Positions 8,506 to 32,655 of a DNA stretch of 64,000 nt are shown here, in pieces (position 1 is the stretch's first letter; each line of letters opens with the position of its first letter). Both the position numbers and the translations under genes were made by a program. Below the pieces are notes generated by a model. That model was given only the letters and a program-made list of their open reading frames with translations, made no database searches and was not told the DNA's origin. Source of the stretch: Artemia franciscana (taxonomy: Eukaryota > Arthropoda > Branchiopoda > Anostraca > Artemiidae); contig NW_027063134.1 of assembly GCF_032884065.1 (NCBI RefSeq), forward strand, positions 24,348 to 88,347. The letters are read 5' to 3'.

Positions 8506-8639
8506 TCGGGTTTAATAAAAAAATATAACACCACTGATTCCCTTATCGCCTCAAAACTTATTACGCACTATGGCTCTTCCTTCACTCCTTGGTACAACCC
8601 TGGCGTCTACCTTCAATATTATCCTTGTAAGTCCCTACC

Positions 8640-9355
8640 ATTTCGTCCACGAGCAAACCACTCTAATCTCTACTAAAAAAAGAAATATTAATAAAATACT
8701 CAATAATGACCAAAATATCTTACCTGTTTAAATTCGTCATTCAATGTAACTTATTTCAAAACAAGATATTTTTTTTAGTCTCTTTTTTAAAGAACCAAGA
8801 GAGCTCCTACCTCTCGGTTCAAGTGAAATGGTATTGTAAGCCTTAGCGCAGACGATGTCAGGCGAAAAATCTGGCCTCACTGTTGGCGTATGTCGAATAT
8901 AAATCTGTGCAGATAGTCTTGTAATTGAAGATGCTGTTTGACTACCAAACAGAATAGATTCCTAAAAAGCAGTGGAAGCAAGCTGGAGAAGAATCAGAAA
9001 GTAAAATCCAAGCAGGAAAGCTCAAACAGCGATTTCAGCGAGAGATAATCATCTGTGTGTTTAATGATCTTCAGGGCATTCTTGTAAATGGAATCCAATT
9101 TTTTCAGATTGGATTTGAACGTCGACTGCCATGCCATTGCGCGATACAGTAAATGGGTTTTGATGAGCGAATTGTAGAGAAGGGTAAGAGTTATAAATGG
9201 GAATGTGTTCTTCAGTTTCTTCATGATGCTAAGATTCTTTGAATGCTTTAGTTCTACAGCATGGATGGGGGGAAGCAAAGAAAAGTTTTTATTCACTCTT
9301 AATCCTAAATATTTTGTAAATCCGTTTGCTGTTAGTCGAACCTTTCTAAGAGACG
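8640..9355 (-). pseudogene. LINE-B reverse transcriptase 3' part, inverted copy
   Basis: Minus-strand translation gives VNKNFSLLPPIHAVELKHSK and LTLLYNSLIKTHLLYRAMAW, then YKNALKIIKHTDDYLSLKSL, the connection/thumb region at the end of a LINE ORF2. It is the mirror of 32663-33390, with a Pro to Thr change in LIKPHLLYR. No palm motif is present, so it is a 3' fragment only. Confidence 0.75.
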
Positions 9356-9372
9356 TCGCAATTCCTGTTGAG

Positions 9373-10385
9373 GAAATGAGGGGGAAGGAAATAAGACTTC
9401 TGTAGGCAGGGAGGGGGAGGAGATGGCAAAGGATAAGGGAGGAGAATTCGGGATCGGGAAGGGTTTGTCAATTTTTGAGCTGTGCCTGATGAACTTTGAT
9501 GAGAAATATTTGCTTGAGTGCGGTGCACTAAAAACGAACGGCAGAAGGGAGATGAGTGGCTCTTACAATTTTTATCTTTGGACAGGGACACTGGAAAAGG
9601 GCCCCGGGGAGTAGAATTAACATCATCTACTTTCGGTGCATGGGCAAAACTACAATATTTGTTACAATGCATGGTGGGAAAAGGTGGAGGAAAAGTTTGT
9701 ATGGCAGGGGGATGGAAACTAAAAGGGGATACTAAAGTAGGGGTATTCAGGGAGGGGGAGCTTGTTTTCCGAACAACCCTCTTGTTTTCCGAAAGTCAGG
9801 AGTGAAATGAGCGAAAACACATTCTCTGTTGGTAAAGAGTAAATTTTACACTTAAAACCAGTAACAGTTTTAAAGCTACTTAATAATTACGATTTTTTCC
9901 GAATTATTGAGGGGGCAACTACCCCCTTACCTCTCTCCCCCCCTCAAAGACACCACTGACCTAATCTAACCAAAATACGACACCACTGACCTAACCTAAC
10001 CAAAATACCAATTTAATTTTTTTTTTTTTTTTTTTAATATAACTACAATGTAGTGATCCACTGAGCCGAAGCTAATAATGTTGTCTCCTTATACAAACAG
10101 CAATAAACCGGTTATTGTCTCATTTTAAATCCAAGTTCTAGATTGTGAACTGGCTAACACAAAAGTAAAAAAAAAATTACTATCGACGGAAATTGCGCAT
10201 TGGGATTACTGCAAGTGTATATTTGTATATAAGCCTACGGTGAAAGAAAAAGATGACACTTCGCGTCAATGGGACAACTACCGTCGTTGAAAAAGAGTCA
10301 GGTTTTAAGAAAATCCACCAGCGCTAAATGGTCGAGAACAAGTAATTGACTAATTTAAAAAAAATTAAAACCAGCAATTAAACTG
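9373..10385 (-). pseudogene. LINE-A middle segment, inverted copy
   Basis: Reverse complement of 28253-29257: the ORF1-ORF2 spacer and the proline-rich start of the LINE-A second frame (minus strand MHCNKYCSFAHAPKVDDVNS, about 9672-9610, to PPPPCLQKSYFLPPH, about 9390). At about 9355-9373 it joins directly to the LINE-B segment, whereas the right arm has 3.5 kb of LINE-A there. It includes the doubled 28-bp unit with GGTTAGGTTAGG (about 9955-10012). Confidence 0.75.
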
Positions 10386-10790
10386 TAAACTCAAGTAATG
10401 AATTATTTTTTTTAAAGAAAAATATAAACTTTGCCTTTCAATGGCTTCAAGCTCTATTTATTGCTTTCCCCTGAGGAACAGAATAGTTTTGTGTCTTGTT
10501 TCTTCTATTTCTGCCTTTTAGTGCAACTGAACAATGTGCGGAAGATACATCGATTGAAGTACTGCGTGGCTTTTCGATGTGCCACCTTGATCTTTGCTCC
10601 TATATCTTTTAACGAACGTTTGCACCGTTTTTGATGCTCGTTTCTCACAATCGGTTTCTTTCTCTCTCTTTCTTTGTCTCTTTTGAGTCATATTTATTTT
10701 ATTTAATAACTGAGCGGGTTTTCCATAGAAAAATAATTGGAATTCAAAAGAAAATGAAGGATCACGAAATTTCGGAGACGGGCAACAGTT
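10386..10790. other. Unassigned sequence between left arm and T1
   Basis: AT-rich single-copy-looking sequence with pyrimidine runs. No protein motif, repeat family or RNA was recognised. It ends where the tandem unit begins (ATGTTGGGTTAAGAAAG). Confidence 0.4.
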
Positions 10791-11141
10791 TATGTTGGGT
10801 TAAGAAAGTGTCAAAATAGTAGCAATAAAAAGGATTTTTTGATGATCCAGTAACAAATTGCCGAGCGAGAAACTATTTGTCTTCGCAATACATTATATTT
10901 TGTAAAATTCCAGAGTTTATATTTATATAATATTAAAACATATTAACCTATTGCGAGAGAACTTGTTTAAAATAGAAAGGTAGTGCGTATTGTGACACAG
11001 CATAGAAAATTACGTAATTACTGTAAAAACCGCTTACAACACCAAATAGAAACAATGCTCATCATTAACCGGAGCAATAAGTTTGGAAAACAAAGTTTTT
11101 TTGATAAATACAATGCATACATGTATTATTTTATTTTTTAG

Positions 11142-11307
11142 CATGCTCGATTCCAATTGCCAGAAAATCCAAATGTTCCACATATAATGATAGGACTGGG
11201 TAAAAGCACCGCACCATTCAGGTATTTCTGGATACACAGGGCAAAACTCAAGAAAGGAAATTTCTACGATTTAAGCAAATGCGTAATTTTTACAATTTGT
11301 GACTAAG
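11142..11307 (+). pseudogene. NOS: NOS-like reductase exon (NADPH-binding), T1 copy
   Basis: A strong acceptor (TTATTTTTTAG) precedes HARFQLPENPNVPHIMIGLG, then KSTAPFRYFWIHR. NOS and related FNR-type reductases have F-LP-x-P-x-VP-x-ILVGPGTGIAPFRSFWQ here, the pyrophosphate-binding loop for NADPH, so the alignment is clear but the loop GPGTGI is GLGKST. Two donors are possible. CAG|GTATTT after 11221 gives phase 2. AAG|GTAATA after 11307 gives phase 1, which is what the minus-strand exon at 42959-43107 needs, but it places a TAA (11304-11306) in frame. Either the short form is used or the copy is dead. No upstream FAD-binding exon was found in the unit. Confidence 0.65.
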
Positions 11308-14300
11308 GTAATACTTTATGATTTATCCTACAATTTTGTATATTTTGTTTCTAATTCCCCTACTTTTTACGTTTTTCTCTTAAGCTATGTCGCCTTTGGA
11401 AATATTTTTTTTTTTGGAACGAACAATAGTTGTTCCTTGTATGAGAAGGGTGGCCCTTTTCAACACTCCTCTTCACGCTAAAGTTTTTTTTAGACTTCTA
11501 AAATAGATTTCAAATCTAATTACACGGCCCTTGTGTTTTAGGAACTGAAAAGGTTGAACTTTAGCGTAAAGAACAGTATTACCTTGAGGACTGCGGGGAA
11601 GGATTGTCAACCACAAAAACTTAATTACTAGACTTTTCAACTATATTGAACAAAAAAGGTTTTTCTCAAAATTTTTATTGAATGTGTATGATGAATTAGA
11701 GGTATGGAGTGGGGGATGGTTACCCTTCAACCATTTTTTACTGTTAATAAGCGCTCAAGAGCTTTCCATTTTGCGATTGAATGAGCTCCTTTAAAAGTTT
11801 CTACGACAAACCCTTCTACACGAAGTGCCTTGGTCTGAAACCTATTTACTCACTTTGTCCTAAAGTGTGTCGAATCTGGGTATCAATGATGAGACACCTA
11901 AATGAAACTCCTTTTCTAAAACCAAACGAACCTCGTATTTCTGTTTCATTTCAGCAATTTTCATTGACAGTTGAAAATTGTCAAATTGTTATCAGAAATT
12001 CCATTTATTCGATTTTGCTGTGTACCAGAATCAGCCAGTTCCTATTTTGTCACTAGGATCGTCCCCTTTTTGGTCTATGATTGTGTCCCCTAAACATCCA
12101 GAAACATATTCATCTTCAAATCTCAAAAACTAGACACTTCTTTTTCACCAGTCCGAATCTCTTGTCCGATTTCTCTTGTCCGAAGAGATAAGTCGTAACA
12201 AAGTAGGTACTATTATTCAAAAGACACTTTATCAACCTCTTTTAAAGCGGCAACTTAAGATCAAATTAAAAAAAAATAATACATAAGAAGCATTTATACA
12301 AAATGACTTTGAGGGAAAGCTCAAAACGCAAATCAACATGTAAATTCCTTACTCTGGAGAATCCTTTCCTTATGACATCTGTGACATATTGTAAATATTC
12401 GAAACATTTTGTAAATATTTACAAATATTGTAAATATTCAAAACCTGGATGATGTTCTGGACTCACACTGTTGCCTGTAGGAACCGACATTAAAGTCTAC
12501 ATATCAGGGAAATCTTACCAATCTGCAATATAACCAGAGGTGTGACTTGCCAAACCCCATTTTGCCCTCCCCCCTCCAATCTGAAATGTAGTTTCTTCAA
12601 TCACATAAATTTTTTCTCAGGTACTCAGTTAGGGCTAGCTTGAAGCTGAAATACAATGATATACAAGCGTAAGGAAATTTTAGACGGAAATTGATACAGA
12701 GTAGATACATCTTAAGTACTCCAATTCTATGTAACTGATTATTAACTAATGACCCTTTTAAGGCCAATACGGGGTTCTAACGCTCACGCCAAGTAACGTT
12801 AAACAGCTTATCGGTCTTTAGAAAAAATTAGGGTTTGGATAAAGTGGCATGGTAACAAAAAGGTCGATATTGTTCAGTCTGTTCAGAAATAGAAGCGATC
12901 GATCTCTGCGTATATTAAAAATCAGTATACATGCATTTTCGATTTCTCTTGATATTTTTCTTTTGTTTCTATTACGATTCCTTTAGCGCCCAAGTTTTCA
13001 AAAAAAAAGTTTAAAGAAATTTGGATACATTTTGTTTTCTTTTCTTTTATCTAAACCAAAAGATTTTAAATCTCAGTGACTAATATTTTAAAAAGTCCGA
13101 AATAACGTTTATGGGTGTGTGGTAACAATTGTGTTTCGTAAAGGCAAACCAATTTCAGCGATTTTTTAATTGGGTTTCGGAAAATAAAGTGCTTGCAATT
13201 ATATTGTGATGACAACTTCTTTTATGATGACAAACTTGAAAAAATGTAAGAAAAATAGGTTAAGTTAAAGGTAATACAGGGGAAAAACAAATAGTGAAAC
13301 TAAAAACCCAGCGTTTAGTAAAGGTAAACAAAACGGAAAAGTTTTTTTTTGTTTCGTAAAAGTAAAACATTTTCAGCAGTTTTTACTATACCCAATAGCT
13401 CAATAAAACACAGAGCTTACAGGTGATGGAATTTTTGGAAACTGGGAAGATGAAGTGCTTATTATCAAACAATCTTTTGGAGAGTTACACATATTTTTTT
13501 AATGAATAATGTAGAGAGGGGTAAAGTAACGATTCAATGTCGGGACAAACCACTACGTTCAAATTCTCAGTTTCCTTTAAAACTTTAAAATTTCCTCGTT
13601 TTTGTTTTACAATATATCTAATTTTTACAAAATACACACACGATGGGGATGAACTTAGGTATAGCTGTAAATTTTGGGATAAATAGCTAGGTAGTCTATA
13701 TTAGTTAGTTTAAGGCCTTAGTTATTCTTGAATCTAAAGCAATGGTTCCCATCCAATTTTGGGCCATGCTTGAACCTAGGCATTTCAAAAATTCTCATGC
13801 AAAACATAGGAAAGTTACCATCCCCTGTCTTGAATAACGTGGAAAATATATTGGCTTGGAAATCAAGAAAATTGACTGAAACCACGATATTCTGCTTATA
13901 CGCCATCTTTTTTTCTTAGTTTCTTTCTTCGCTTTCACCTCAGTTATCAGGGCACTGGAACATCGTAGAGAGCTGCTTAATAGCTCATTTGAAAGGAAAT
14001 TAATGTATTTAAAAACTTTTTGCAATTAAAAAAATAATTTTAAAATTAGTTGTACAAGGAATAGATAAAGTTCATCATAAATGGTGTCAGTCAAGAGAAT
14101 CTCATGTAGTAGATGATCAGTTGATTTTCAATCCCTGAAACTTTCCCTTTCATACCCTTAGGCACAGTTGTAATACTAGCAAGAGTAGTAGCAATAGTTC
14201 TATTAATGTTTGCATTACTAACAGCAACATTAAAAACGATAACACTAGCACTACTTACAACAGATATATTAACATATGCCTTTTAATCAGTTGAATATCC

Positions 14301-15876
14301 TCCTCACCAAGTTTCTGGAAGTTTCAACTTATTACAATTATCCATTGCTATGACATGGTGATAGGATCTTTTAAATACCTATCGATATTTAAGTTTCATA
14401 TTCAATTTAAAAACATTAGCTATTTTGATTAAGCATGGGCACTAATCTTTTTTTTTTAGGAAATAAAAAAAATATAGCACTTTAAATAGCACTAAAATAA
14501 GCACTTTATTCTTTTTAAGTAGCACTTTAAATAACACATAAAAATAATAGCAATTTAACGAAAACGCACTTTTCGGATCCAGATCCGAAAACGTTACTAA
14601 TACGGCCCTTTTCTCACAAAAAGACTATTTTTTATAATGAAAGAAAAAAATCTTTTATATACACAAGCTTTTCTATCTTTTTTGGGAGGAAGGGGGGAGT
14701 TATTTCCTTCCTTTTTCTTTTCTTTTTTTAATTTCCTTTCGTGAACATCTTAATGCAAAACTTGTATTTTCTCATAATTGAAGATATTACGAATGTCTAA
14801 GAATGTTACATGCTTGCTGCTTCGATGAATGTCAGTGAAACGGAAAACTGTTTGTTTTCATGGAGAAACAGAGACTGCTATTGCTAATCAGCAATTTGTT
14901 TTAAATTGTCTGAATATGAATCTCCCCAAAGCCCCAGCCATAGGGTGCATGTCCAACTCATTACCCGCCAAAACGTTTCCCTGATCATTTTTAAAATAAT
15001 ACCAAGAGAGCCACCTTCCTATCCATGTCTTGCTATTAAAATTACCCTCTACAAGTCTATATGTAAAATTGGGTCATCAAAGAGGAAGTAAAACAAACAA
15101 AACAGTTGCGCTTAACAATTCTGAAAAATTCCCCCGCGAAAATTTCCCTTGGAAAGTTCACCGCCAGAAACTTTCCTCATCACAGAAAACTTTTGCCCTG
15201 CCAATAATCACCCAAAATATGTCAGTAAACTCCCCCTTCCTCCCGAAAAAACTCTATATGTAAAGAAATGACAAATTAAGCAACTTATAGCCGTTTTCCC
15301 AAGGGTCGTGGAGGAATATTGACAAATTCCCACAGTGTAAAACTTCCTTTAAAAAGTTCACTTCGTGAAACTTCCCTCTCCATGGACATTTCTTCGCCTT
15401 GGAATATCTCCTAAGCAGAAAATTTGTCCCCCCACATGCAGACTTCCTAATGAAAATTACATTTAGTGTTTCTTAACTTTGTTTAATCTTTCCAGCTTTG
15501 CATACTATTTTTTACTAACTGCAAATAACTAATGCGATATTTTTATCCAAATTTGTAAGGTTGAGCGGCAACTTTGTAAGGGCAGGAACACACTTTATTC
15601 CATTCCCTCTTGCTTAAAAAAAAAAAAAAAAAAAAAAAAAATGGGGAAAATACCAACAATTATTTATCTAAACAATGCTATATGCGAGAAAACAAATTTT
15701 ATTCAAAAATGAAAGAAAAAAAATGAATACAATAAAGTAGAAACATTTCTTCCTTTGCATAAGTCTCTTAAGAAAACGCAGCTGATGATGAAAAGAACCA
15801 AAATATATATGACATTGGAAAAAAAAAACAACAAAACAAAATATAAATAACTATTAAATACATTTACATACAATCC
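11308..15876. other. Noncoding part of T1
   Basis: AT-rich, intron-like. Seen in it: a copy of interspersed family Rep-X (about 11540-11760); AGCACTTTAAA-type short repeats (about 14450-14560); a 22-bp palindrome at 14570-14591; TTCCC/GGAAA-rich sequence (15120-15430); and an A tract near 15617. Several open frames are the same in T2 only because the whole unit is duplicated. AATAAA on the minus strand near 15693 is a possible poly(A) signal for the DnaJ gene. Confidence 0.5.
14570..14591. repeat. 22-bp palindrome with BamHI-like core
   Basis: TTTTCGGAT, a 4-base centre CCAG, then ATCCGAAAA: a perfect 9-bp inverted repeat. It is present unchanged in T2 (about 23456-23477). Confidence 0.8.
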
Positions 15877-16446
15877 TCACAACATACAATCCTCACATTT
15901 ACATAAAAACATACTATCCTCAGCACAATAGAAGTGAGAATTCTTTTGGAAAGAAAAACCCGTGAAAAAGGAACATTCATCTGCGGAATGATCCCTTATA
16001 TCTTCAACTATCGTCTTACATACCCTGCACTGGAATCCGGTACCCATGTACCAAGTGAGGTCATCCCTGTTTAGAAATATCTTCCTACACACCCTGCACT
16101 GGAATGACTGTTTTTTGGTCCCAGAGCTATCAAAAGTCCTAGAGCTATCAGAAGTGCCAGAGCTATCAGAAGTGCCAGAGGTTGTACTAAAGCTATAAAC
16201 GTTATAATTCTCACGTTTTTCGTCATCAACAAGAACCTCATAAGCTTTTAAAATCTCTTGAAAACGGCTTGTGGCTTCTTTCTCATTGTTCCGGTTTTTG
16301 TCAGGATGCCATCTCATAGCTAAAAAACGGTACGACTTTCTTACTTCTGCCTTAATTTCCTTTGCCTTCATACCTGTCATTTTTTTTCTATTTAACTTTA
16401 GCATAGTATAATAGTCGGTTTTCTTAGCTTCTATTCGCCTTGACAT
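15877..16446 (-). CDS. Small J-domain (DnaJ/HSP40-like) zinc-ribbon protein, T1 copy
   Basis: Intronless 189-residue protein. Residues 10-80 form a J domain: YYTMLKLNRKKMTG, then RKSYRFLAMRWHPDKNRNNE with the HPD tripeptide that stimulates Hsp70 ATPase, and AYEVLVDDEKRENYN, the usual helix IV. A linker has the repeat SGTSDSS/SRTFDSS (about 89-108). The C-terminal part is Cys-rich: CRVC, a second CRVC, C, C and CKCEDC, probably a zinc-binding unit. There is no G/F region and no classical DnaJ CxxCxGxG repeats, so it is a type C-like J protein. The client is unknown. The start ATG at 16446 is 58 bases after the predicted initiator. The neighbour T2 copy differs at about 18 residues. Confidence 0.85.
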   Translation of the reverse strand: MSRRIEAKKTDYYTMLKLNRKKMTGMKAKEIKAEVRKSYRFLAMRWHPDKNRNNEKEATSRFQEILKAYEVLVDDEKRENYNVYSFSTTSGTSDSSGTSDSSRTFDSSGTKKQSFQCRVCRKIFLNRDDLTWYMGTGFQCRVCKTIVEDIRDHSADECSFFTGFSFQKNSHFYCAEDSMFLCKCEDCML

Positions 16447-16503
16447 GATATGAATTTCTTAAAGTTTTGTCTAATCTGACTCCTAGTGTTGCAGTTTTAG
16501 TAC

Positions 16504-16631
16504 TGAGGCTGAACAATGCGCTGCTTTTATTTATACTATGAATGACGTCATCGAGTTTTTACATAGTCACGAGTCTAAGACTTTCACACGTCACGAGTTT
16601 AAGACTACAATATTATTTAGATGTGACGTCA
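16504..16631 (-). promoter_or_regulatory. DnaJ promoter, T1: CRE sites, TATA box, TCAGT initiator
   Basis: Reading the minus strand: TGACGTCA (16624-16631), two copies of TCACGAGTYTAAGACT (about 16567-16605), TGACGTCA (16543-16550), TATAAATA (16528-16535), then TCAGT with its A at 16504, exactly 31 bases after the first T of the TATA box. That spacing is the standard arthropod TATA-Inr geometry. TGACGTCA is the consensus CREB/ATF site, so inducible expression is inferred. The 5' UTR would be 57 bases. Confidence 0.7.
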
Positions 16632-17090
16632 TATTAGTTTTAAATTAGCTACTGGTAAAGGATGATGAATAGGCAAGAGCTCTTATAATCAGTTCAAAAC
16701 TTAATATAGTACCGAGATTAATGTAAAAAGACAACAATTCAAACGGTAGTCATCCGTAAAATGAAAATATTGCTATTTGCTACAATTTGCTAAACTATTA
16801 TAAATTTGTATTTTAACGCTAAAATAAGATTTATTCATCATACAATGCACATCTAATATTAAATTTTATTATTCACCAAAAGGCTCTTTGGCCTGTAAAG
16901 AAGAGGAAAATAAACGAGTCACTTACTCAGAGAAGAAAAAAATTGATATAATCACTTACTCACAGAGAGAAAAGCAACAAGGAGAAGAAAAGAAAATATA
17001 AATAAAATAAAAACTACAGAAAACAAAATTAAATAGACTAACAGATTGAATAGACGCAATTTTTAGTAGATAAAAAGGACTCCAATAAAT

Positions 17091-17165
<75 letters not shown>

Positions 17166-18134
17166 CAGTTTTGAATTGAACCTTCAAACTTTATTGTGCA
17201 ATTAAGCCTGTGTGCTCGTTCTAACGGCAGTAATTGAGGGGAAGGAACGTCCTTTCCTCCTTGGTTCTTCGCTCCTGCCTAGGTTCTCGAAAAACACCTT
17301 TCTTCGGTCATTTTATTGGAATAAGCACTTTTTATTTATTTGAAGAAAAAAAAATGAGGAAACAGCCGAAAGTGCGCTTTATGGGAATGTGCTGTGAAGT
17401 TAAATTTATAAAAAGTGATTACACATAAATATAAGCTTTTAAATGAGCCTTTAAACAGCTCTCTTTTTTACAGTAGCCTTCTAGTTTCTGCTAGTCAGCA
17501 GTCGATTTAGAAAGCCCTGTCCTCGTTATAGTTTTTTCAGGCTAAATCGGCCGAGTAGAAACAACTTTTTGCTCATCAAAAATAAACGTTCCTGAATAAC
17601 ATGTATTGGTTTGTTAGGTATGGATAATGAACTTTATGTTATAGACTGAAAGTTTTTCGTAGCTGTCAAGGTTGTCCGCAGTATTTTCTAGAGATGTCTC
17701 ATCTCAGCCGACGAGACTACAATGTCTTGTTTGAGAGTTCATACAGTAAACACCTTTATTGATACAACATTGATATAATCTCATTATACAGTAAAACTCA
17801 ATCGTGAGTTTTTTCAACCTCATTATACAGTAAGACTCAATCGTGACCCTATGGACTTAATTGAACTTGAACTAAATAGAACTTGGATTATTTAGTTATT
17901 TGATCTCCCTATGGACTTTTTCTGAAAATATTTCAATAATCAGAACTTGAATTATTAGACAACTAATTATTAATTGTGAAAACAACTAAGTGACTAAGGT
18001 GTTGAAGATTGCTTATGTGCCTTGCTTAAACTAAAATTGAATAATTCTTCCTTTCCCTCAATGTTGCCACTGCTTGACTCTCTCTGTCTAGTGTTGCCAC
18101 TGCTTGACTCGAGTCCCGAAGCAACTATTGTGAT
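16632..18134. other. Noncoding sequence upstream of DnaJ and LINE-A ORF1, T1
   Basis: Holds an (AT)n tract (17094-17163, about 70 bases), a 35-base tandem pair containing CATTATACAGTAARACTCAA (about 17785-17845), and two copies of TGTTGCCACTGCTTGACTC (about 18063 and 18094) just before the LINE-A ORF1 start. The last part is probably LINE-A 5' UTR. No host gene was recognised. Confidence 0.5.
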
Positions 18135-18656
18135 ATGTCGAAACCAAAAAACTATTGTCCCGAGTGCCGACTGCTGGTAACCACAAATTCTGTCCAATGC
18201 GTGTCAGGATGCGGCCTTTGGCACCATGCGGGCGTTAATAAATGCGCCCAAATCGGACTAAAGGACCATTCCGGCGAATGGTTATGCATGGAATGTCTTG
18301 CAAAAGAAATACCCTTGACTCCGAAGTGGCAACCATCTCAACCTCCACAAAAGCCTAGTCTAAAGAGACCTGTAAGAGGAAGTGGAATCGGCACCTCTTC
18401 ACCACAAATTATTACGGGACCTAAAACTAACTCTGATATATCGAAAGGGACTAAGCCATCTGCGGTAAGTGTAGACATTCCCAACTATGAATCCGAAACA
18501 ATCTGTCTAAGTGAGAAAATTAAGACCCTGGATACAAGTTTATTGGCATGTCAAGCAGAAAATCTAGACATCCGGACAAATCACTCAATGTTTGTGTCAG
18601 AAATGGAGGAAAAGAACAATCAAATTAAAGTGTTGACAGGCCATTTGGAGGTTAAA
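18135..18656 (+). pseudogene. LINE-A ORF1 with PHD finger, T1 copy, cut by gap
   Basis: MSKPKNYCPECRLLVTTNSV begins a PHD-type Cys4-His-Cys3 finger (YCPEC, CVSGC, WHHAG, CAQIG, CMEC), followed by a Pro/Ser linker and a Leu/Glu-rich coiled segment. The frame is open up to the N run at 18657. It matches T2 ORF1 with few changes (for example GLWHH against GRWHH). PHD fingers are known in ORF1 proteins of CR1-like retrotransposons. Anything read across the N run is artificial. Confidence 0.75.
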
Positions 18657-18756
18657 NNNNNNNNNNNNNNNNNNNNNNNNNNNNNNNNNNNNNNNNNNNN
18701 NNNNNNNNNNNNNNNNNNNNNNNNNNNNNNNNNNNNNNNNNNNNNNNNNNNNNNNN
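18657..18756. other. Assembly gap (100 N)
   Basis: Exactly 100 N, a conventional placeholder for a gap of unknown size. It removes the end of T1 and the T1 copy of LINE-A beyond mid-ORF1. Confidence 1.
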
Positions 18757-19656
18757 CATGTTTTTATTACACATATGAGAGGGTTCGCCCCCTCGTCAGT
18801 ACCTCTCTCTTTACACTAAATCTTAAATTTTGGCCCAATTCATTAAGAATGACCCCTGAATCACAAAAGCCGTAGAATAAATAGTTGACATTACTAAAAA
18901 TACTTTAGCGTAAAGAGCGAGGTATTAGGAGGAGGTGAGCCCCTCATATGGGTAATAATTTCTGTTCGTTTTAAGTTCTAATGCTGCTCCTTACTTCCAG
19001 CTGAAAAGAACTTTTTCATATTTATTTTTTCATTGTTTTTTTTTTAAATAATGCTAGTAAATCCTGTACTCCCTTCATGGAAATTTTCTTCCCCCATTAC
19101 AAATTCCTCGATGGAAAGTTCTCCCAGTATATCCCCCTCTTTTCAACCCCTCCCCCAACCAAAAAATCCTCCTGAAAACACCTGTATACTTCCCTATAAC
19201 CATTACTATATGTAAGCACTGGTCAAAGTTTGTAACTTGTAGCCCCTCCCACGGGGACTGTGGAGGAGTAAGTCGTCCCCAAAGACATAGTTATAAGGTT
19301 TTTCGACTACGCTGTATCAAATGGCTAACTCAGAATTTTTATCTGTTGACTTTGGGAAAATAATTAGCGTGGGAGGGGGCCTAGGTGCCCTCCAATTTCT
19401 TTGGTCACTTAAAAAGGGCACTAGAACTTTTCATTTCCGTTAGAATGAGCCCTCTTACAACATTATAGGACAACTGGGTCGATATGATCACCCCTGGGAA
19501 AAAAAACAAAAAACAAACAAACAAATAAACACGCATCCGTGATCTGCCTTCTGGCAAAAAATACAAAATTCCACATTTTTGTAGATAGGAGCTTGAAACT
19601 TCTACAGTAGGGTTCTCTAATACGCTGAATCTGATGGTGTAATACGCTGAATCTGA
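18757..19656. repeat. Interspersed repeat Rep-X and TTCCC-rich sequence between T1 and T2
   Basis: About 19240-19650 matches the reverse complement of 46730-47190 in order: CCCCAAAGACA, AATGGCTA, a GACTTTG-GGAAAATAA stretch, GTCACTTAARRAGRGCACTAGAACTT, TTTCCGTTAG, GGGTCGATA. This defines a family of 400 bp or more, with other copies near 11540, 20440, 54130 and 58120. The left part (18757-19200) is AT-rich with TTCCCC runs. No gene was seen. Confidence 0.7.
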
Positions 19657-20008
19657 ATATGTTGGGTTAAGAAAGTGTCAAAATAGTAGCAATAAAAAGG
19701 ATTTTTTGATGATCCAGTAACAAATTGCCGAGCGAGAAACTATTTGTCTTCGCAATACATTATATTTTGTAAAATTCCAGAGTTTATATTTATATAATAT
19801 TAAAACATATTAACCTATTGCGAGAGAACTTGTTTAAAATAGAAAGGTAGTGCGTATTGTGACACAGCATAGAAAATTACGTAATTACTGTAAAAACCGC
19901 TTACAACACCAAATAGAAACAATGCTCATCATTAACCGGAGCAATAAGTTTGGAAAACAAAGTTTTTTTGATAAATACAATGCATACATGTATTATTTTA
20001 TTTTTTAG

Positions 20009-20174
20009 CATGCTCGATTCCAATTGCCAGAAAATCCAAATGTTCCACATATAATGATAGGACTGGGTAAAAGCACCGCAACATTCAGGTATTTCTGGAT
20101 ACACAGGGCAAAACTCAAGAAAGGAAATTTCTACGATTTAAGCAAATGCGTAATTTTTACAATTTGTGACTAAG
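20009..20174 (+). pseudogene. NOS: NOS-like reductase exon (NADPH-binding), T2 copy
   Basis: Same acceptor, reading and two alternative donors (after 20088 or 20174) as the T1 exon, and the same in-frame TAA just before the second donor. One difference is visible in the conserved loop: GKSTAPFR in T1 is GKSTATFR here (C to A at 20081). The proline in the APFR motif is nearly invariant in this reductase family, so the T2 copy looks the less constrained of the two. Confidence 0.6.
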
Positions 20175-23100
20175 GTAATACTTTATGATTTATCCTACAA
20201 TTTTGTATATTTTGTTTCTAATTCCCCTACTTTTTACGTTTTTCTCTTAAGCTATGTCGCCTTTGGAAATATTTTTTTTTTGGAACGAACAATAGTTGTT
20301 CCTTGTATGAGAAGGGTGGCCCTTTTCAACACTCCTCTTCACGCTAAAGTTTTTTTTAGACTTCTAAAATAGATTTCAAATCTAATTACACGGCCCTTGT
20401 GTTTTAGGAACTGTTTCTAGAGAACTGAGACAAAAGGTTGAACTTTAGCGTAAAGAACAGTATTACCTTGAGGACTGCGGGGAAGGATTGTCAACCACAA
20501 AAACTTAATTACTAGACTTTTCAACTATATTGAACAAAAAAGGTTTTTCTCAAAATTTTTATTGAATGTGTATGATGAATTAGAGGTATGGAGTGGGGGA
20601 TGGTTACCCTTCAACCATTTTTTACTGTTAATAAGCGCTCAAGAGCTTTCCATTTTGCGATTGAATGAGCTCCTTTAAAAGTTTCTACGACAAACCCTTC
20701 TACACGAAGTGCCTTGGTCTGAAACCTATTTACTCACTTTGTCCTAAAGTGTGTCGAATCTGGGTATCAATGATGAGACACCTAAATGAAACTCCTTTTC
20801 TAAAACCAAACGAACCTCGTATTTCTGTTTCATTTCAGCAATTTTCATTGACAGTTGAAAATTGTCAAATTGTTATCAGAAATTCCATTTATTCGATTTT
20901 GCTGTGTACCAGAATCAGCCAGTTCCTATTTTGTCACTAGGATCGTCCCCTTTTTGGTCTATGATTGTGTCCCCTAAACATCCAGAAACATATTCATCTT
21001 CAAATCTCAAAAACTAGACACTTCTTTTTCACCAGTCCGAATCTCTTGTCCGATTTCTCTTGTCCGAAGAGATAAGTCGTAACAAAGTAGGTACTATTAT
21101 TCAAAAGACACTTTATCAACCTCTTTTAAAGCGGCAACTTAAGATCAAATTAAAAAAAAATAATACATAAGAAGCATTTATACAAAATGACTTTGAGGGA
21201 AAGCTCAAAACGCAAATCAACATGTAAATTCCTTACTCTGGAGAATCCTTTCCTTATGACATCTGTGACATATTGTAAATATTCGAAACATTTTGTAAAT
21301 ATTTACAAATATTGTAAATATTCAAAACCTGGATGATGTTCTGGACTCACACTGTTGCCTGTAGGAACCGACATTAAAGTCTACATATCAGGGAAATCTT
21401 ACCAATCTGCAATATAACCAGAGGTGTGACTTGCCAAACCCCATTTTGCCCTCCCCCCTCCAATCTGAAATGTAGTTTCTTCAATCACATAAATTTTTTC
21501 TCAGGTACTCAGTTAGGGCTAGCTTGAAGCTGAAATACAATGATATACAAGCGTAAGGAAATTTTAGACGGAAATTGATACAGAGTAGATACATCTTAAG
21601 TACTCCAATTCTATGTAACTGATTATTAACTAATGACCCTTTTAAGGCCAATACGGGGTTCTAACGCTCACGCCAAGTAACGTTAAACAGCTTATCGGTC
21701 TTTAGAAAAAATTAGGGTTTGGATAAAGTGGCATGGTAACAAAAAGGTCGATATTGTTCAGTCTGTTCAGAAATAGAAGCGATCGATCTCTGCGTACATT
21801 AAAAATCAGTATACATGCATCTTCGATTTCTCTTGATATTTTTCTTTTGTTTCTATTACGATTCCTTTAGCGCCCAAGTTTTCAAAAAAAAAGTTTAAAG
21901 AAATTTGGATACATTTTGTTTTCTTTTCTTTTATCTAAATCAAAAGCTTTTAAATCTCAGTGACTAATATTTTAAAAAGTCCGAAATAACGTTTATGGGT
22001 GTGTGGTAACGATTGTGTTTCGTAAAGGCAAACCAATTTCAGCGAATTTTTTAATTGGGTTTCGGAAAATAAAGTGCTTGCAATTATATTGTGATGACAA
22101 CTTCTTTTATGATGACAAACTTGAAAAAATGTAAGAAAAATAGGTTAAGTTAAAGGTAATACAGGGGAAAAACAAATAGTGAAACTAAAAACCCAGCGTT
22201 TCGTAAAGGTAAACAAAACGGAAAAGTTTTTTTTTGTTTCGTAAAAGTAAAACATTTTCAGCAGTTTTTACTATACCCAATAGCTCAATAAAACACAGAG
22301 CTTACAGGTGATGGAATTTTTGGAAACTGGGAAGATGAAGTGCTTATTATCAAACAATCTTTTGGAGAGTTACACATATTTTTTTAATGAATAATGTAGA
22401 GAGGGGTAAAGTAACGATTCAATGTCGGGACAAACCACTACGTTCAAATTCTCAGTTTCCTTTAAAACTTTAAAATTTCCTCGTTTTTGTTTTACAATAT
22501 ATCTAATTTTTACAAAATACACACACGATGGGGATGAACTTAGGTATAGCTGTAAATTTTGGGATAAATAGCTAGGTAGTCTATATTAGTTAGTTTAAGG
22601 CCTTAGTTATTCTTGAATCTAAAGCAATGGTTCCCATCCAATTTTGGGCCATGCTTGAACCTAGGCATTTCAAAAATTCTCATGCAAAACATAGGAAAGT
22701 TACCATCCCCTGTCTTGAATAACGTGGAAAATATATTGGCTTGGAAATCAAGAAAATTGACTGAAACCACGATATTCTGCTTATACGCCATCTTTTTTTC
22801 TTAGTTTCTTTCTTCGCTTTCACCTCAGTTATCAGGGCACTGGAACATCGTAGAGAGCTGCTTAATAGCTCATTTTAAAGGAAATTAATGTATTTAAAAA
22901 CTTTTTGCAATTAAAAAAAATAATTTTAAAATTAGTTGTACAAGGAATAGATAAAGTTCATCATAAATGGTGTCAGTCAAGAGAATCTCATGTAGTAGAT
23001 GATCAGTTGATTTTCAATCCCTGAAACTTTCCCTTTCATACCCTTAGGCACAGTTGTAATACTAGCAAGAGTAGTAGCAATAGTTCTATTAATGTTTGCA

Positions 23101-24498
23101 CTACTAACAGCAACATTAAAAACGATAACACTAGCACTACTTACAACAGATATATTAACATATGCCTTTTAATCAGTTGAACATCCTCCTCACCAAGTTT
23201 CTGGAAGTTTCAACTTATTACAATTATCCATTGCTATGACATGGTGATAGGATCTTTTAAATACCTATCGATATTTAAGTTTCATATTCAATTTAAAAAC
23301 ATTAGCTATTTTGATTAAGCATGGGCACTAATCTTTTTTTTTTAGGAAATAAAAAAAATATAGCACTTTAAATAGCACTAAAATAAGCACTTTATTTTTT
23401 TTAAGTAGCACTTTAAATAACACATAAAAATAATAGCACTTTAACGAAAACGCACTTTTCGGATCCAGATCCGAAAACGTTACTAATACGGCCCTTTTCT
23501 CACAAAAAGACTATTTTTTATAATGAAAGAAAAAAATCTTTTATATACACAAGCTTTTCTATCTTTTTTGGGAGGAAGGGGGGAGTTATTTCCTTCCTTT
23601 TTCTTTTCTTTTTTTAATTTCCTTTCGTGAACATCTTAATGGAAAACTTGTATTTTCTCATAATTGAAGATATTACGAATGTCTAAGAATGTTACATGCT
23701 TGCTGCTTCGATGAATGTCAGTGAAACGGAAAACTGTTTGTTTTCATGGAGAAACAGAGACTGCTATTGCTAATCAGCAATTTCTTTTAAATTGTCTGAA
23801 TATGAATCTCCCCAAAGCCCCAGCCATAGGGTGCATGTCCAACTCATTACCCGCCAAAACGTTTCCCTGATCATTTTTAAAATAATACCAAGAGAGCCAC
23901 CTTCCTATCCATATCTTGCTATTAAAATTACCCTCTACAAGTCTATATGTAAAATTGGGTCATCAAAGAGGAAGTAAAACAAACAAAACAGTTGCGCTTA
24001 ACAATTCTGAAAAATTCCCCCGAGAAAATTTCCCTTGGAAAGTTCACCGCCAGAAACTTTCCTCATCACAGAAAACTTTTGCCCTGCCAATAATCACCCA
24101 AAATATGTCAGTAAAGTCCCCCTTCCTCCCGAAAAAACTCTATATGTAAAGAAATGACAAATTAAGCAACTTATAGCCGTTTTCCCAAGGGTCGTGGAGG
24201 AATATTGACAAATTCCCACAGTGTAAAACTTCCTTTAAAAAGTTCACTTCGTGAAACTTCCCTCTCCATGGACATTTCTTCGCCTTGGAATATCTCCTAA
24301 GCAGAAAATTTGTCCCCCCACATGCAGACTTCCTAATGAAAATTACATTTAGTGTTTCTTAACTTTGTTTAATCTTTCCAGCTTTGCATGCTATTTTTTA
24401 CTAACTGCAAATAACTAATGCGATATTTTTATCCAAATTTGTAAGGTTGAGCGGCAACTTTGTAAGGGCAGGAACACACTTTATTCCATTCCCTCTTG

Positions 24499-24532
<34 letters not shown>

Positions 24533-24764
24533 GGAAAATACCAACAATTATTTATCTAAACAATGCTATATGCGAGAAAACAAATTTTATTCAAAAATGA
24601 AAGAAAAAAAATGAATACAATAAAGTAGAAACATTTCTTCCTTTGCATAAGTCTCTTAAGAAAACGCAGCTGATGATGAAAAGAACCAAAATATATATGA
24701 CATTGGGAAAAAAAAACAACAAAACAAAATATAAATAACTATTAAATACATTTACATACAATCC
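20175..24764. other. Noncoding part of T2
   Basis: Same content as 11308-15876: Rep-X fragment, AGCACTTTAAA repeats, the 22-bp palindrome, TTCCC-rich sequence, and an A tract of about 27 near 24502. One position that could have been an exon (after CACCTCAG, T1 13938) acquires a stop here, arguing against coding. Confidence 0.5.
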
Positions 24765-25337
24765 TCACAACATACAATCCTCACATTTACATATATACAT
24801 ACTATCCTCACCACAATAGTAGTGAGAATTCTTTTGGAAAGAAAAACCCGTGAAAAAGGAACATCCATATGCGGAATGATCCCTTATATCTTCAACTATC
24901 GTCTTACATACCCTGCACTGGAATCCGGTACCCATGTACCAAGTGCGGTCATCCCTGTTTAGACACATCCTCGTACACACCCTGAATGACGGGAATGACG
25001 TTTTTTTGGTCCCAGAGCTATCAGAAGTCCTAGAGCTATCAGAAGTGCCAGAGCTATCAGAAGTGCCAGAGGTTGTACTAAAGCTATAAACGTTATAATT
25101 CTCACGTTTTTCGTCATCAACAAGAACCTCATAAGCTTTTAAAATCTCTTGAAAACGGTTTGTGGCTTCTTTCTCATTGTTCCGGTTTTTGTCAGGATGC
25201 CATCTCATAGCTAAAAAACGGTACGACTTTCTTATTTCTGCCTTAATTTCCTTTGCCTTCATACCTGTCATTTTTTTTCTATTTAACTTTAGCACAGTAT
25301 AATAGTCGGTTTTCTTAGCTTCTATTCGCCTTGACAT
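24765..25337 (-). CDS. Small J-domain (DnaJ/HSP40-like) zinc-ribbon protein, T2 copy
   Basis: 190 residues, paralogue of the T1 protein. The J domain keeps HPD (RWHPDKNRNNE) with only conservative changes (M15V, V to I, S to N). The C-terminal half diverges: the first CRVC becomes FRVC with a one-residue insertion before it (SFPSFRVC), RKIFLN becomes TRMCLN, DLTWY becomes DRTWY, SADEC becomes SAYGC, and several F become Y or A become G. The second CRVC and the terminal CKCEDC are kept. The frame is fully open, so both copies appear functional. All differences I can see change the protein, while the promoter and 5' flank are practically identical. Confidence 0.85.
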   Translation of the reverse strand: MSRRIEAKKTDYYTVLKLNRKKMTGMKAKEIKAEIRKSYRFLAMRWHPDKNRNNEKEATNRFQEILKAYEVLVDDEKRENYNVYSFSTTSGTSDSSGTSDSSRTSDSSGTKKTSFPSFRVCTRMCLNRDDRTWYMGTGFQCRVCKTIVEDIRDHSAYGCSFFTGFSFQKNSHYYCGEDSMYICKCEDCML

Positions 25338-25394
25338 GATATGAATTTCTTAAAGTTTTGTCTAATCTGACTCCTAGTGTTGCAGTTTTAGTAC

Positions 25395-25522
25395 TGAGGC
25401 TGAACAATGCGCTGCTTTTATTTATACTATGAATGACGTCATCGAGTTTTTACATAGTCACGAGTCTAAGACTTTCACACGTCACGAGTTTAAGACTACA
25501 ATATTATTTAGATGTGACGTCA
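25395..25522 (-). promoter_or_regulatory. DnaJ promoter, T2: CRE sites, TATA box, TCAGT initiator
   Basis: Identical arrangement to T1: TGACGTCA at 25515-25522 and 25434-25441, TATAAATA at 25419-25426, initiator A at 25395, plus the doubled TCACGAGTYTAAGACT. Conservation is uninformative on its own because the whole flank is duplicated. Confidence 0.68.
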
Positions 25523-27063
<1,541 letters not shown>

Positions 27064-28160
27064 ATGTCGAAACCAAAAAACTATTGTCCCGAGTGCCGAC
27101 TGCTGGTAACCACAAATTCTGTCCAATGCGTGTCAGGATGCGGCCGTTGGCACCATGCGGGCGTTAATAAATGCACCCAAATCGGACTAAAGGACCATTC
27201 CGGCGAATGGTTATGCATGGAATGTCTTGCAAAAGAAATACCCTTGACTCCGAAGTGGCAACCATCTCAACCCCCACAAAAGCCTAGTCCAAAGAGACCT
27301 GTAAGAGGAAGTGGAATCGGCACCTCTTCACCACAAATTATTACGGGACCTAAAACTAACTCTGATATATCGAAAGGGACTAAGCCATCTGCGGTAAGTG
27401 TAGACATTCCCAACTATGATTCCGAAACAATCCGTCTAAGTGAGAAAATTAAGACCCTGGATGCAAGTTTATTGGCATGTCAAGCAGAAAATCTAGACAT
27501 CCGGACAAATCACTCAATGTTTGTGTCAGAAATGGAGGAAAAGAACAATCAAATTAAACTGTTGACAGGCCATTTGGAGGTTAAAGACTTTCTTATAGCT
27601 CAGCTGAAACAAGAACTCTCGGTGGCTATCGAAACCCGCCCTCGTGACCCTTCGCAAATCTCCCGTGACCAAGTTACCCAGTCAACGCAAACGGACAAAG
27701 ATATCTCTGTTGCTAACCGAAATGCACCCATTGATATTAAAGTGCAAAAAATAACATCTAGCACAAGCTTAGCCCACGACTGTGCGATCTTGTCAGACGA
27801 AATGAATCCTAGTGATACGTTATCAACTAGTGCAAATGCACCCCTTCCGACGCTCGTAGAGAAAAGCTAAAGAACTTGGCAATCTATCAAAAGAAAGTAC
27901 TTGACGCAAATCAGACGGCTAGTAGGATCGCTGTTTTTTTTACGAGTCCATTTTTTTAATCTTTTTTTTTTTCTGTTGATAGTAGGCTATATAAACAAGG
28001 GAACGCTAATGTCTCGCTACTTGGCGTTCATCTCGGAACACTACGTACACCGCACAGTTCCTCCACGCTTGACATAGTCCCCAGAACACTAGAGTCGGCT
28101 CCACTACGTTTGGCAGGCGCCACTGGTGTAAGCTGCACGATTTATGATTGTTATGATATA
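27064..28160 (+). pseudogene. LINE-A ORF1 (PHD finger, coiled coil), T2 copy
   Basis: The first 268 codons are open: PHD finger at residues 7-55 (YCPEC ... CVSGC ... WHHAG ... CTQIG ... CMEC), Pro/Lys/Ser linker (about 60-110), and a coiled coil (about 125-185: SEKIKTLDASLLACQAEN, EEKNNQIKLLTGHLEVKDF). The frame stops at 27870, but one frame over the sequence goes on sensibly as ARREKLKNLAIYQKKVLDAN (from about 27854). After a T-rich slip it continues as GNANVSLLGVHLGTLRTPHS and LESAPLRLAGATGVS to about 28150. The true ORF1 was therefore longer (about 360 residues) and is broken by two frameshifts. Its role would be RNA binding and chaperone in the retrotransposition particle. Confidence 0.75.
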
Positions 28161-28956
28161 TAGCAATCTATCTTTTTTTAAATTGCTTTTTTTTAAATAT
28201 TAATCTTTTTTTAAATTGCTGGTTTTAAATTTTTAATTGCTGGTTTTAAATTTTTAATTGCTGGTTTTAATTTTTTTTAAATTAGTCAATTACTTGTTCT
28301 CAACCATTTAGCGCTGGTGGATTTTCTTAAAACCTGACTCTTTTTCAACGACGGTAGTTGTCCCATTGACACGAAGTGTCATCTTTTTCTTTCACCGTAT
28401 ACTTATATACAAATATACACTTGCAGTAATCCCAATGCGCAATTTCCGTCGATAGTAATTTTTTTTTCACTTTTGTGTTAGCCAGTTCACAATCTAGAAC
28501 TTGGATTTAAAATGAGACAATAACCGGTTTATTGCTGTTTGTATAAGGAGACAACATTATTAGCTTCGGCTCAGTGGATCACTACATTGTAGTTATATTT
28601 AAAAAAAAAAAATTTAAATTGGTATTTTGGTTAGGTTAGGTCAGTGGTGTCGTATTTTGGTTAGGTTAGGTCAGTGGTGTCTTTGAGGGGGGAGAGAGGT
28701 AAGGGGGTAGTTGCCCCCTCAATAATTCGGAAAAAATCGTAATTATTAAGTAGCTTTAAAACTGTTACTGGTTTTAAGTGTAAAATTTACTCTTTACCAT
28801 CAGAGAATGTGTTTTCGCTCATTTCACTCCTGACTTTCGGAAAACAAGAGGGTTGTTCGGAAAACAAGTTCCCCCTCCCTGAATACCCCTACTTTAGTAT
28901 CCCCTTTTAGTTTCCATCCCCCTGCCATACAAACTTTTCCTCCACCTTTTCCCACC
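28161..28956 (+). other. LINE-A spacer with short tandem repeats
   Basis: It has three copies of an AATTGCTGGTTTTAAATTTTT unit (about 28200-28275) marking the inner edge of the inverted repeat. A 28-bp unit ATTTTGGTTAGGTTAGGTCA followed by GTGGTGT is present twice (28630-28685). No protein was recognised. Confidence 0.55.
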
Positions 28957-31900
28957 ATGCATTGTAACAAATATTGTAGTTTTGCCCATGCACCGAAAGT
29001 AGATGATGTTAATTCTACTCCCTGGGGCCCTGTTCCAGTGTCCCTGTCCAAAGATAAAAATTGTAAGAGCCACTCATCTCCCTTCTGCCGTCCGTTTTTA
29101 GTGCACCGCACTCAAGCAAATATTTCTCATCAAAGTTCATCAGGCACAGCTCAAAAATTGATAAACCCTTCCCGATCCCGAATTCTCCTCCCTTATCCTT
29201 TGCCATCTCCTCCCCCTCCCTGCCTACAGAAGTCTTATTTCCTCCCCCCTCATAGTATGCTACCCTACACCCTCCCTACTCTGCCACAAACCAGCAATTT
29301 CTTGACGGATATGAATCACTATTACCAACCAGGTCCCCTTTCCCAGTACCTTACGAATCGCCACCCCCAGCCCATTCGTTTTATCCCTCGTGCCTACCCT
29401 GTCAACGTGACTCAGGTCTGAGACTTTTTAATTGTCTTATAATGAATCTTAATTGTTCTCCTCGTGATTCATCCATATCATTGCCTGTCCCCCCACCCCG
29501 GAATCCCCATGAAAAATCCTTCTCTTACTCTAATAATTCATCTATCGATGTTGACCCTAATAGTCATCCCATAAACGTCAAATGTGCTCCCTTGGTCCCT
29601 TGTTCAGACTACATTAATCTGGCCCCCACTAAGAATCCCACCCCACCCCCTGTACCGATTTTTAATTTAAATAAAGTAAAGTGTAAAAATGGTACCTTTG
29701 CAGGTCATTTTAAATTTCCCACACTTTTGTTAAGCAACGCTGAAAGTCTTAATTTTGAAAAACTTAATGAATTAGACTCCTTTTCTAAAATATATAGATC
29801 AGACATAATCGCTATTACTGAAGTACACGCTCAAAATACACACATGTTAAAAATGAATAATTTCACCCAGTTTATTAAACTCAGACCCAAAACCCACCCT
29901 CTGGGTAAGAAAGGGGGTGGAATTCTTTTCTTTGTCCGTAATGATTTTTATCCTTCAGAAATATTAGCTCCTTGTCTTAATCCCTTTGATCAAATTTTGT
30001 GGGTTTGTATTCGACCTAAGGTCTTACTACGTCCTTTCAATTTGAAGGTCCTGTATTGTTTTTACTACTCTCCTGGGCAGAGAGCGGCTGAAAAATTAAT
30101 TTTATTGAGAAATTGCATAGCGGTGCCGACTATGTACTATCTAAATACCCAAATACTGGAATTTTCCTCTTGGGTGATGCAAATGAATTAAAACTTGAGT
30201 CTACATGTAATACTTTTAGTCTAAAACAAATTGTAAAAGTCCCTACTACCAAAGGCAATTCTACTCTTGATTTAATATGCACCAATATGTCAAATTTCTA
30301 CAGACCCGTCACCATTCTTCCCCCTCTCGGAGGTAGTTACAACATTAGCCTACTCCTATCTCCACTAGATACAGTTAAACATTCCTTTATTATTGCTGTA
30401 ACCGTCTTTAGACCTCAAATTTACTCAGGACTCTACAATTTTGGCTCTTGGATCACTGGTGAAAATTGGTCCCCTGTGTACCAAACAAATGATGTCGACT
30501 TCAAGGCTTTATCCCTCCAAAATTTATTGAGGAGTAATTATGAAGCCCATTTTCCGGTGAAAAAAAATTAAAATATGCTCTACCGATAAACCTTACATTG
30601 CTGCGACTTTTAAAAAACTAATAAGGAAAAAAAATCAATTTGTTCAAGCAAGGACATATCACAAAGGCTAATGATCTAAGAAAGTTCCTGAAGAGAAAAT
30701 TGAGAAAGGCAGCTTGTGGGTATTACAACAGTAAGGTTAAGGATTTGTATTCTAACAAACCCAAACAATGGTAAAGGAAAATTAAACAGATTTGTGGAAA
30801 AGACCCTGTTGAAGTTAATTTTCATCTCTCTGAGCCCCCTTACAAGATAACCAACGATTTGAACCTGCATCTTGCGTCCATAGTACAAAATCTTCCCCCT
30901 TTCACTGGCTCAGGTCAAACTATTCCTCCCTCCACCTCTTTCCCCCCAATTTCTCCCTCTGATGTAATAAATAAAATCCAAAAGCTCAAAAAATCAAGTA
31001 CTTGCCCATTAGACATCCCAATTGACTTCATTAAAGCCTTTTCAGACACAATTGCTGGACCTTTGTCTGATATTTTTAACCAAATTACAAAATCTGGTAA
31101 ATTCCCAAGTTGCTGGAAACTAGGTTTTATAATACCCATCCCAAAGAAATCTTCCAGTCTGACTATAACCAACAAGCGTCCTATTACACTCACTCCATTT
31201 TTTTCTAAACTTTACGAAGGGTTCCTTTGGGACTGGCTTAAAATTAAAATTTTACCACGCATTGACATCCGACAGTTTGGTAATTTAAGAAAAAACCTCC
31301 ACCACCCATTACCTTGTACACTTGATTCACACGATCCTAAGTGAACTAGAGAAACTAAATGTTTGGCTAAACCTGGTTTTAGTCGATTTCCAAAAAGCGT
31401 TTGACTTAGTTGACCACACTTTCCTAATTCGTCTACTGCATGATAACTTTGAAATTGACCCACTTTTAGTAAGTATTGTTATATCGTTACTTTCAGACAG
31501 ATCACAAGTTGTAAAATACAAAAATACCTTCTCTAACCCCCTCCCTAGGTACTGTGGAATACCTCAAGGAACCTTATTGGGACCACTATTATTTCTTCCA
31601 TGATTAACGAAATTGGCAAGGAATTCCCCCAAAGATGGAAATATGTGGATCACTTGTCGATCCTTGAAGTATGTCATAGGAATATTAAATTGACCCCGTT
31701 GAAATCCTAACCCAAGGTTCGGATGAATCTAAGAATCTAAATATGACAGTAAATCCCACCAAATCACAGATAATGACAATCAACTTCTTGAAATCTACTC
31801 CTGCTTTTTGCGATCCGATCCCAAGCGAAATACTAGTAAAACATGTTAAGGTTCTTGGTGTCACAATTTCTAATGATCTTAAGTGGGACACACATGTTTC

Positions 31901-32468: not shown

Positions 32469-32655
32469 TTGTTAAGTTTACTGATTTGCCCTTTATCTTT
32501 GATGATTTTGCTTTTTAATTCCTTTTAATTTTAAGTGATTGACTTAATGTACTGTTTTGAACTTTTTTTTTCTTAGCTTTTACTAACATATAAAGCGGAT
32601 TCGGCTCTATAGAGCCTGTGATAGCCTTTTGAAAATAAATATTATCTTATCTTGT

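Follow-up and report, generated by a model that had tools for sequence, protein, structure and literature searches.

Most J-domain proteins are conserved co-chaperones with housekeeping roles. Two described systems resemble parts of the locus reported here: DNAJC21/Jjj1, which we take to be a J domain plus two C2H2 zinc fingers, and the clusters of KRAB or ZAD zinc-finger genes, which diversify through finger gain, loss and conversion. We analyzed a stretch of 64,000 nucleotides of Artemia franciscana DNA (assembly GCF_032884065.1, contig NW_027063134.1, positions 24,348 to 88,347 of the forward strand), hereafter the window, which forms the right end of scaffold C548 (88,347 bases; other scaffolds are named likewise) in a genome of 1.27 Gb. 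A search for Chitin_bind_4 gave 97 matches, as befits an arthropod, and one for the odorant-receptor family 7tm_6 gave 0, at most a hint that the animal is no insect. It carries two closely similar J-domain genes, T1 and T2, whose differences are concentrated in the coding sequence and change the protein. With slightly better than even confidence, we read them as members of a working J-domain family in which the C-terminal tails are swapped by conversion and, at least in T1 and T2, are selected for change.

Coding differences between T1 and T2

The two genes lie in two copies of a duplicated unit of ~7.9 kb (positions count from the first letter of the window):

15877..16446, minus strand: T1, intronless J-domain protein, 189 amino acids
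24765..25337, minus strand: T2, 190 amino acids, a paralogue or an allele of T1
10791..18656, unstranded: unit 1 of the duplication, right end cut by the gap
19658..27585, unstranded: unit 2 of the duplication
18657..18756, unstranded: scaffold gap of 100 N between unit 1 and unit 2
18135..18656, plus strand: fragment of open reading frame 1 (ORF1) of a long interspersed nuclear element (LINE) in unit 1, with a PHD-like Cys/His motif by eye, used as a comparison sequence
27064-27870: LINE ORF1 in unit 2

Unit 1 and unit 2 differ by 56 substitutions in 7864 aligned columns and by 9 indels. Their left flanks are unlike, with 10383-10790 and an inverted repeat at unit 1 and a dispersed repeat at unit 2. 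Because unit 1 stops at the 100-N gap, inside the LINE ORF1, alleles may have been scaffolded in tandem; the ‘tandem’ order depends on the scaffolding, and T1 and T2 may be paralogues or alleles. The stretch around the LINE ORF1 is dispersed through the genome at 84–94%.

A first-pass annotation, made from the sequence alone, had placed both genes and given their strand and reading frames correctly. Its estimate by eye of about 18 changed residues plus one insertion, with no clear silent change, agrees with the counts: 19 of 570 aligned columns differ (20 if aligned by codon) in addition to a 3-base insertion, and by codon 18 are changed and one is inserted, none of them synonymous. Path-averaged counting gives one silent step, within the two-change codons of the tail. 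It was likewise right that the J domain and its HPD motif are kept (three changes; HPD in both), that some 350 bases upstream are identical (16447-16842, with the core promoter within, holds no difference) and that the rest of the unit differs at well under 1 in 100 (37 of 7294 sites outside the coding sequence). With the flanks taken as the neutral rate, a check the annotation had proposed, the coding sequence shows a clear excess (Fisher P 5.5e-9; odds 6.7 times those of the rest of the unit), and the ratio of nonsynonymous to synonymous change (dN/dS) in the T1–T2 tail is 4.1. The densest other 570-base stretch of the unit, in the LINE part, holds 9 differences. For 20 changes with an expected silent share of 17–23%, the probability of no silent change is 0.005–0.023. 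A neutral coding hotspot is disfavoured, since it would be expected to produce 3.6 silent changes where none was observed (P 0.028).

A tract shared by T2 and a copy on C3

The genome was searched with unit 1, 40 of 8212 first-look candidates being scored, which makes every count a minimum. Apart from the LINE part, long matches were found on C548 (at least two units), at C3:8290889-8300025 (at least one unit, 92–99% by piece) and at C2:25779042-25791445 (at least one unit, 90–92%), with older, shorter pieces near C2:25668948-25691143 and C2:25806451-25807944. Depending on the comparison, alignments below 150, 100, 60 or 200 bases were dropped. In the C3 unit (C3:8288000-8297900, at 4236-5800), which lies on another chromosome, chromosome 3, the gene C3A lacks promoter and first codons; after it comes C3B, a copy of the tail alone in which the finger pair is doubled. 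Beyond the unit, C3 (8284500-8288540 and 8300445-8302900) matched the window only in an AT-repeat and short stretches at 75–80%.

The first-pass annotation had raised conversion with a third paralogue, and a search for conversion tracts recovered one candidate of 285 bp:

16059..16343, minus strand (T1 coordinates): tract, 285 bp, in which T2 but not T1 is identical to C3A
24947..25234, minus strand: counterpart in T2, 288 bases counting the inserted codon

Across it T1 differs from C3A by 10 substitutions and an inserted codon (3 bases) and T2 by none; the tract holds 10 of the 19 T1–T2 substitutions as well as the inserted codon. At five informative sites (16100-16076) T2 goes with C3A and T1 with C3B, whereas at the next 29 (16014-15426) T1 goes with T2; a C2 copy, C2_784, agrees with T1 at four of the five tract-side sites. 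These sites show a mosaic, in which the tract differs in history from the sequence around it. The simplest explanation would be gene conversion of this part of T2 by a C3A-like copy, although this direction is not proven. Outside the tract, whose limits were set after the fact, there are 9 substitutions in 285 coding bases against 1.4 expected (P 2.1e-5). All nine change the protein, which alone has a probability of 0.09–0.18. The non-coding differences also fall in blocks, unit-1-derived at 12913-14553 (10) and then unit-2-derived at 14756-15230 (5), a post hoc pattern that leaves out 11214, 13056, 15504, 15819 and every site right of the gene.

T1 and T2 in a family of intronless J-domain genes

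Further copies, for which the first-pass annotation had suggested a search, do exist. A protein search of the genome gave 39 matches, among which we counted 19 family loci or fragments on six scaffolds (C548, 2; C3, 2; C2, 4; C6, 1; C15, 8; C63, 2), the rest being pieces or more distant J proteins. The family genes are intronless, with DNAJB6-like J domains and tails made of C2H2 fingers or their remains, and several copies are frameshifted or truncated. In a tree of 24 J domains, a subset of all matches taken from scaffolds other than C63, ten family J domains including those of T1 and T2 form one clade with support of 1.000. Its sister is a group of C19 genes (0.77) that look DNAJB6-like by eye. 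Extra residues ahead of J-domain helix II are a feature of the clade and are present in T1 and T2. T1 and T2 are thus probably recent copies in a young multigene family of short intronless J-domain proteins, and probably working ones. The promoter has been duplicated along with the gene, and for this reason we discounted an origin of the copies by independent retrocopying.

Further J-domain matches, some of them containing stops, form a second cluster at C5:11610457-11691017, and none of these was matched by T1. A scan of viral contigs with T1 alone gave no relative. Searches of the open-licence PubMed Central literature listed no such family, though it may be annotated elsewhere; a passage in PMC8616336 concerns the plant J-domain protein SILENZIO.

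Degenerate zinc fingers in the tail

T1 consists of a J domain (residues 11–82), a Ser/Gly/Thr/Asp linker, two degenerate fingers and a Cys-rich end. In T1 and T2 a Pfam scan recognized the J domain only (PF00226, 66.9 bits in T1 and 70.0 bits in T2; cut-off 27.8), with no C2H2 match at E values up to 1. For C2H2 fingers (C-x2-C-x12-H-x3-H), the Pfam cut-off was passed by five of ten proteins scanned, i.e., C6, C2_779, C2_784, C63 and C3B, with zf-C2H2 scores of 45.5 bits for C6, 25.3 for C2_779 and 27.5 for C63 (cut-off 25.2). C2_688 and C15_318 fell below it, and T1, T2 and a C19 gene had none. The finger remains of T1 are as follows:

16036..16104, minus strand: T1 finger 1, FQCRVCRKIFLNRDDLTWYMGTG; histidine ligands gone by eye, and in T2 the first Cys gone too
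15973..16035, minus strand: T1 finger 2, rearranged by eye into a C-x2-C...H...C pattern

Read by eye, the fingers form a series: canonical in C6, without the last histidine in C2, and without both histidines in finger 1 of T1 and T2. The relatives show that the tail region derives from C2H2 zinc fingers, decayed in T1 and T2, so that the ‘client-binding domain’ of the first-pass annotation does not hold as stated. Loss of the ligands in T1 and T2 suggests that the tail may have a new protein-binding or disordered role. The finger-1 changes sit in the zinc knuckle, and the helix residues RDD are constant in T1, T2, C3A, C3B and three C2 copies, which speaks against a changed DNA specificity. 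From the HPD-bearing J domain we infer that T1 and T2 could recruit Hsp70. An AlphaFold2 model of T1, with T2 as the sole other row of its alignment, was too poor (mean predicted local distance difference test score of 39.9) and was not used.

A promoter core shared by 12 family loci

Upstream of both genes are elements that we name by what we take to be their consensus names (cAMP response element, or CRE; TATA; initiator-like):

16502..16631, minus strand: T1 core promoter-like elements
16624-16631 and 16543-16550, minus strand: two T1 CRE sites, TGACGTCA
16586-16593, minus strand: T1 promoter element TGACGTGT
16529-16535, minus strand: T1 TATAAAT
16502-16506, minus strand: T1 initiator-like TCAGT
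25393..25522, minus strand: T2 core promoter-like elements, identical to those of T1
15698..15703, minus strand: AATAAA polyadenylation-like signal downstream of T1

With promoter elements and a downstream AATAAA, T1 and T2 have the appearance of complete genes that lack introns. In an alignment that covered six of the eight C15 loci, twin TGACGTCA, TATAAAT at –89/–90 and TCAGT at –60 were aligned in T1, T2, C2_779, C2_784 and the six C15 copies. C2_688 has the TATA and one exact CRE without TCAGT, and other copies keep remnants: TCAGT only in the truncated C2_741, one CRE and TCAGT in C63, none in C6. The 23-mer TGACGTCATTCATAGTATAAATA, allowing one mismatch at most, had 12 matches in the genome (11 exact, one with one mismatch), namely three on C2, seven on C15 and two on C548, every one upstream of a family gene; the reversed 23-mer, as a control, had 0. 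This CRE–TATA core is common to 12 family loci and occurs nowhere else in the genome at one mismatch or fewer.

The window holds 21 occurrences of the CRE motif TGACGTCA, and 14 fall within 7515-8486 and 33629-34626 of Helitron-like copies. A sigma-70 promoter scan was disregarded as meaningless for a eukaryote.

Rates of change across the family

A divergence profile was drawn between unit 1 and one C2 copy, C2_784. The promoter differs by 2.5%, the J domain by 3.3%, the upstream flank by 4.0% and the 3′ flank by 6.2% (15001-15600: 3.3%), finger 1 by 13.6% (11/81) and the whole tail, which aligns poorly, by 31.7%. Neither C3B nor the truncated C2_741 entered the dN/dS set, which drew on six of the eight C15 loci. 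J-domain dN/dS is 0.09–0.61 in 12 pairs with a C2 copy and 0.40–0.52 against C6, and is undefined for T1–T2, T1–C3A and T2–C3A, where silent changes are 0. The J domain is shown by these ratios to be under purifying selection between the C2 and the C548/C3 copies. Tail dN/dS is 1.9–2.0 for T1–C3A and T2–C3A, and 0.43–0.72 over all pairs with a C2 copy, C6 aside.

Seven C15 copies were compared in 21 pairs, one of the eight loci being dropped because its start was not found. Divergence is 0–3.3% in the J domain, 0.3–9.7% upstream and 0–20% in the tail; in 20 of 21 pairs the tail is more divergent than the J domain, and in as many the J domain is less divergent than the upstream flank. By codon, nonsynonymous divergence (pN) in the J domain is below synonymous divergence (pS) in 18 pairs, the other three having no silent change; in the tail pN exceeds pS in 18, is lower in one and both are 0 in two. 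A tail that changes faster than the J domain is therefore general in the family, whereas only T1–T2 clearly shows a tail that outpaces neutral change.

Explanations considered

In the reading we favour, the J domain would recruit and stimulate Hsp70 and the tail would set where or on what Hsp70 acts. Family copies would trade tail segments via gene conversion, finger modules would be gained and lost, and selection would favour new amino acids in the tail while J domain and promoter were held constant. The T1–T2 pattern would then be one imported tract (10 of the 19 substitutions and the inserted codon) with nine further protein-changing substitutions. If this is true, the family would be a natural experiment on the evolution of co-chaperone specificity and would point to a fast-changing partner of the tail. 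A bolder version, which we think rather improbable, is a lineage-specific arthropod family with a constant Hsp70-recruiting J domain, a hypervariable ex-zinc-finger tail reshuffled by conversion and one CRE promoter, engaged in an arms race against a partner that itself changes, e.g., mobile elements or gamete proteins.

Several results weigh against selection on the tail or against its combination with conversion. A single complex mutation may account for the insertion and five finger-1 sites, all of which fall inside 25 bases, and the events then number nearer 13–14; with linked changes counted as 13, the probability of no silent change is 0.03–0.09. Scarcity of silent changes is by itself weak evidence, since over 522 bases the LINE ORF1 fragment of the unit likewise shows 7 nonsynonymous codon changes against 1 synonymous; the T1–T2 observation is stronger in its excess of density. 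Between unit 1 and C2_784 the 3′ untranslated region (UTR) differs by 15.6% (41/262), matching finger 1, and J-domain dS for T1–C2_784 is 0.12, above the 6% of the flank, hinting at coding-specific exchange or chance. Tail dN/dS of T1, T2 and C3A against the C2 copies is 0.50–0.72 on a poor alignment. Of the 21 C15 pairs, only 12 have a tail more divergent than the upstream flank and 6 a tail more divergent than the downstream flank, where alignment is doubtful, and the pN excess of the tail is mostly small or rests on few silent sites. Many of the 29 sites that join T1 with T2 lie in the C-terminal end, where C3A and C3B differ wholesale. Diversifying selection, as proposed in the first-pass annotation, is thus upheld in part: the coding excess beyond the tract and the case against a hotspot speak for it, while the no-silent test is weaker at 13 events and the C2 and C15 tail comparisons are mixed.

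T1 and T2 might instead be alleles of one locus, with haplotype contigs scaffolded in series and coding differences that are allelic polymorphism, possibly under balancing selection. The gap separates the two copies, the flank divergence of 0.5% is within what we take to be usual heterozygosity, and C548 is not among the large scaffolds. The left flanks of the units differ, but a heterozygous insertion could account for that; this account is doubtful, if credible. Conversion might also suffice without selection, if the coding stretch stays alike among clades and ectopic conversion lands there and brings the differences. The T2–C3A mosaic and the blocks of non-coding differences (post hoc) fit this, as does the finding that, on scaffolds other than C548, C3 and C2, what matches around the gene is mostly promoter and J region. 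Imported tracts would, however, be expected to carry silent changes, of which there are 0 among 20 substitutions, and the nine residual changes have no traced donor, the C3 states there being mixed or missing. We hold conversion alone to be unlikely. Relaxed constraint, with a tail on its way to being lost that accumulates changes at the mutation rate, appears improbable: ligands for zinc have gone step by step, several copies are broken, and tails are often no faster than the flanks in C15 or than the 3′ UTR against C2, yet relaxed constraint alone cannot give the T1–T2 coding excess over the rest of the unit. An assembly or consensus error that made one copy falsely divergent is very improbable. 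A gap lies beside the unit and the C3 copy looks rearranged, but the differences are mostly substitutions, both frames stay open and the T2 finger-1 variant is found again in C3A.

Other repeats in the window

A large inverted repeat (6581-10382 and 28253-35568, 95–99% alike) flanks the J-domain gene units on both sides, its right arm carrying inserted LINE-like ORFs. It includes one end of a Helitron-like element, with Rep- and helicase-like ORFs, named by eye, at 3158-6733. Overlapping direct repeats of ~0.6–1.6 kb, 96–99.6% alike, occupy 36131-46330.

Comparison with known systems

Among solved structures, the best matches of the T1 J domain include chains of the class B proteins DNAJB6, DNAJB8 and DNAJB2 (6u3r, 2dmx and 2lgw). 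The T1 family differs from these in ~8 more residues before the second helix and, by reading, in the S/G/T/D rather than G/F-rich linker of T1 and T2 and in a finger-derived tail in place of the long class B C-terminal region. A Cys-rich stretch after the J domain, as the first-pass annotation implied, recalls class A DnaJ/DNAJA, but T1 and T2 have neither the CxxCxGxG motif nor a Pfam match to that domain, and their cysteines come from C2H2 fingers. DNAJC21/Jjj1 resembles the family in general layout, with a J domain at the N terminus and C2H2 fingers at the C terminus of the same chain; the T1 family is short, intronless and multigene. Unlike KRAB or ZAD clusters, the T1 family has its finger-1 changes in the zinc knuckle, with the helix RDD constant; like them, it is clustered, bears signs of conversion and gains and loses modules, as in the doubled finger pair of C3B.

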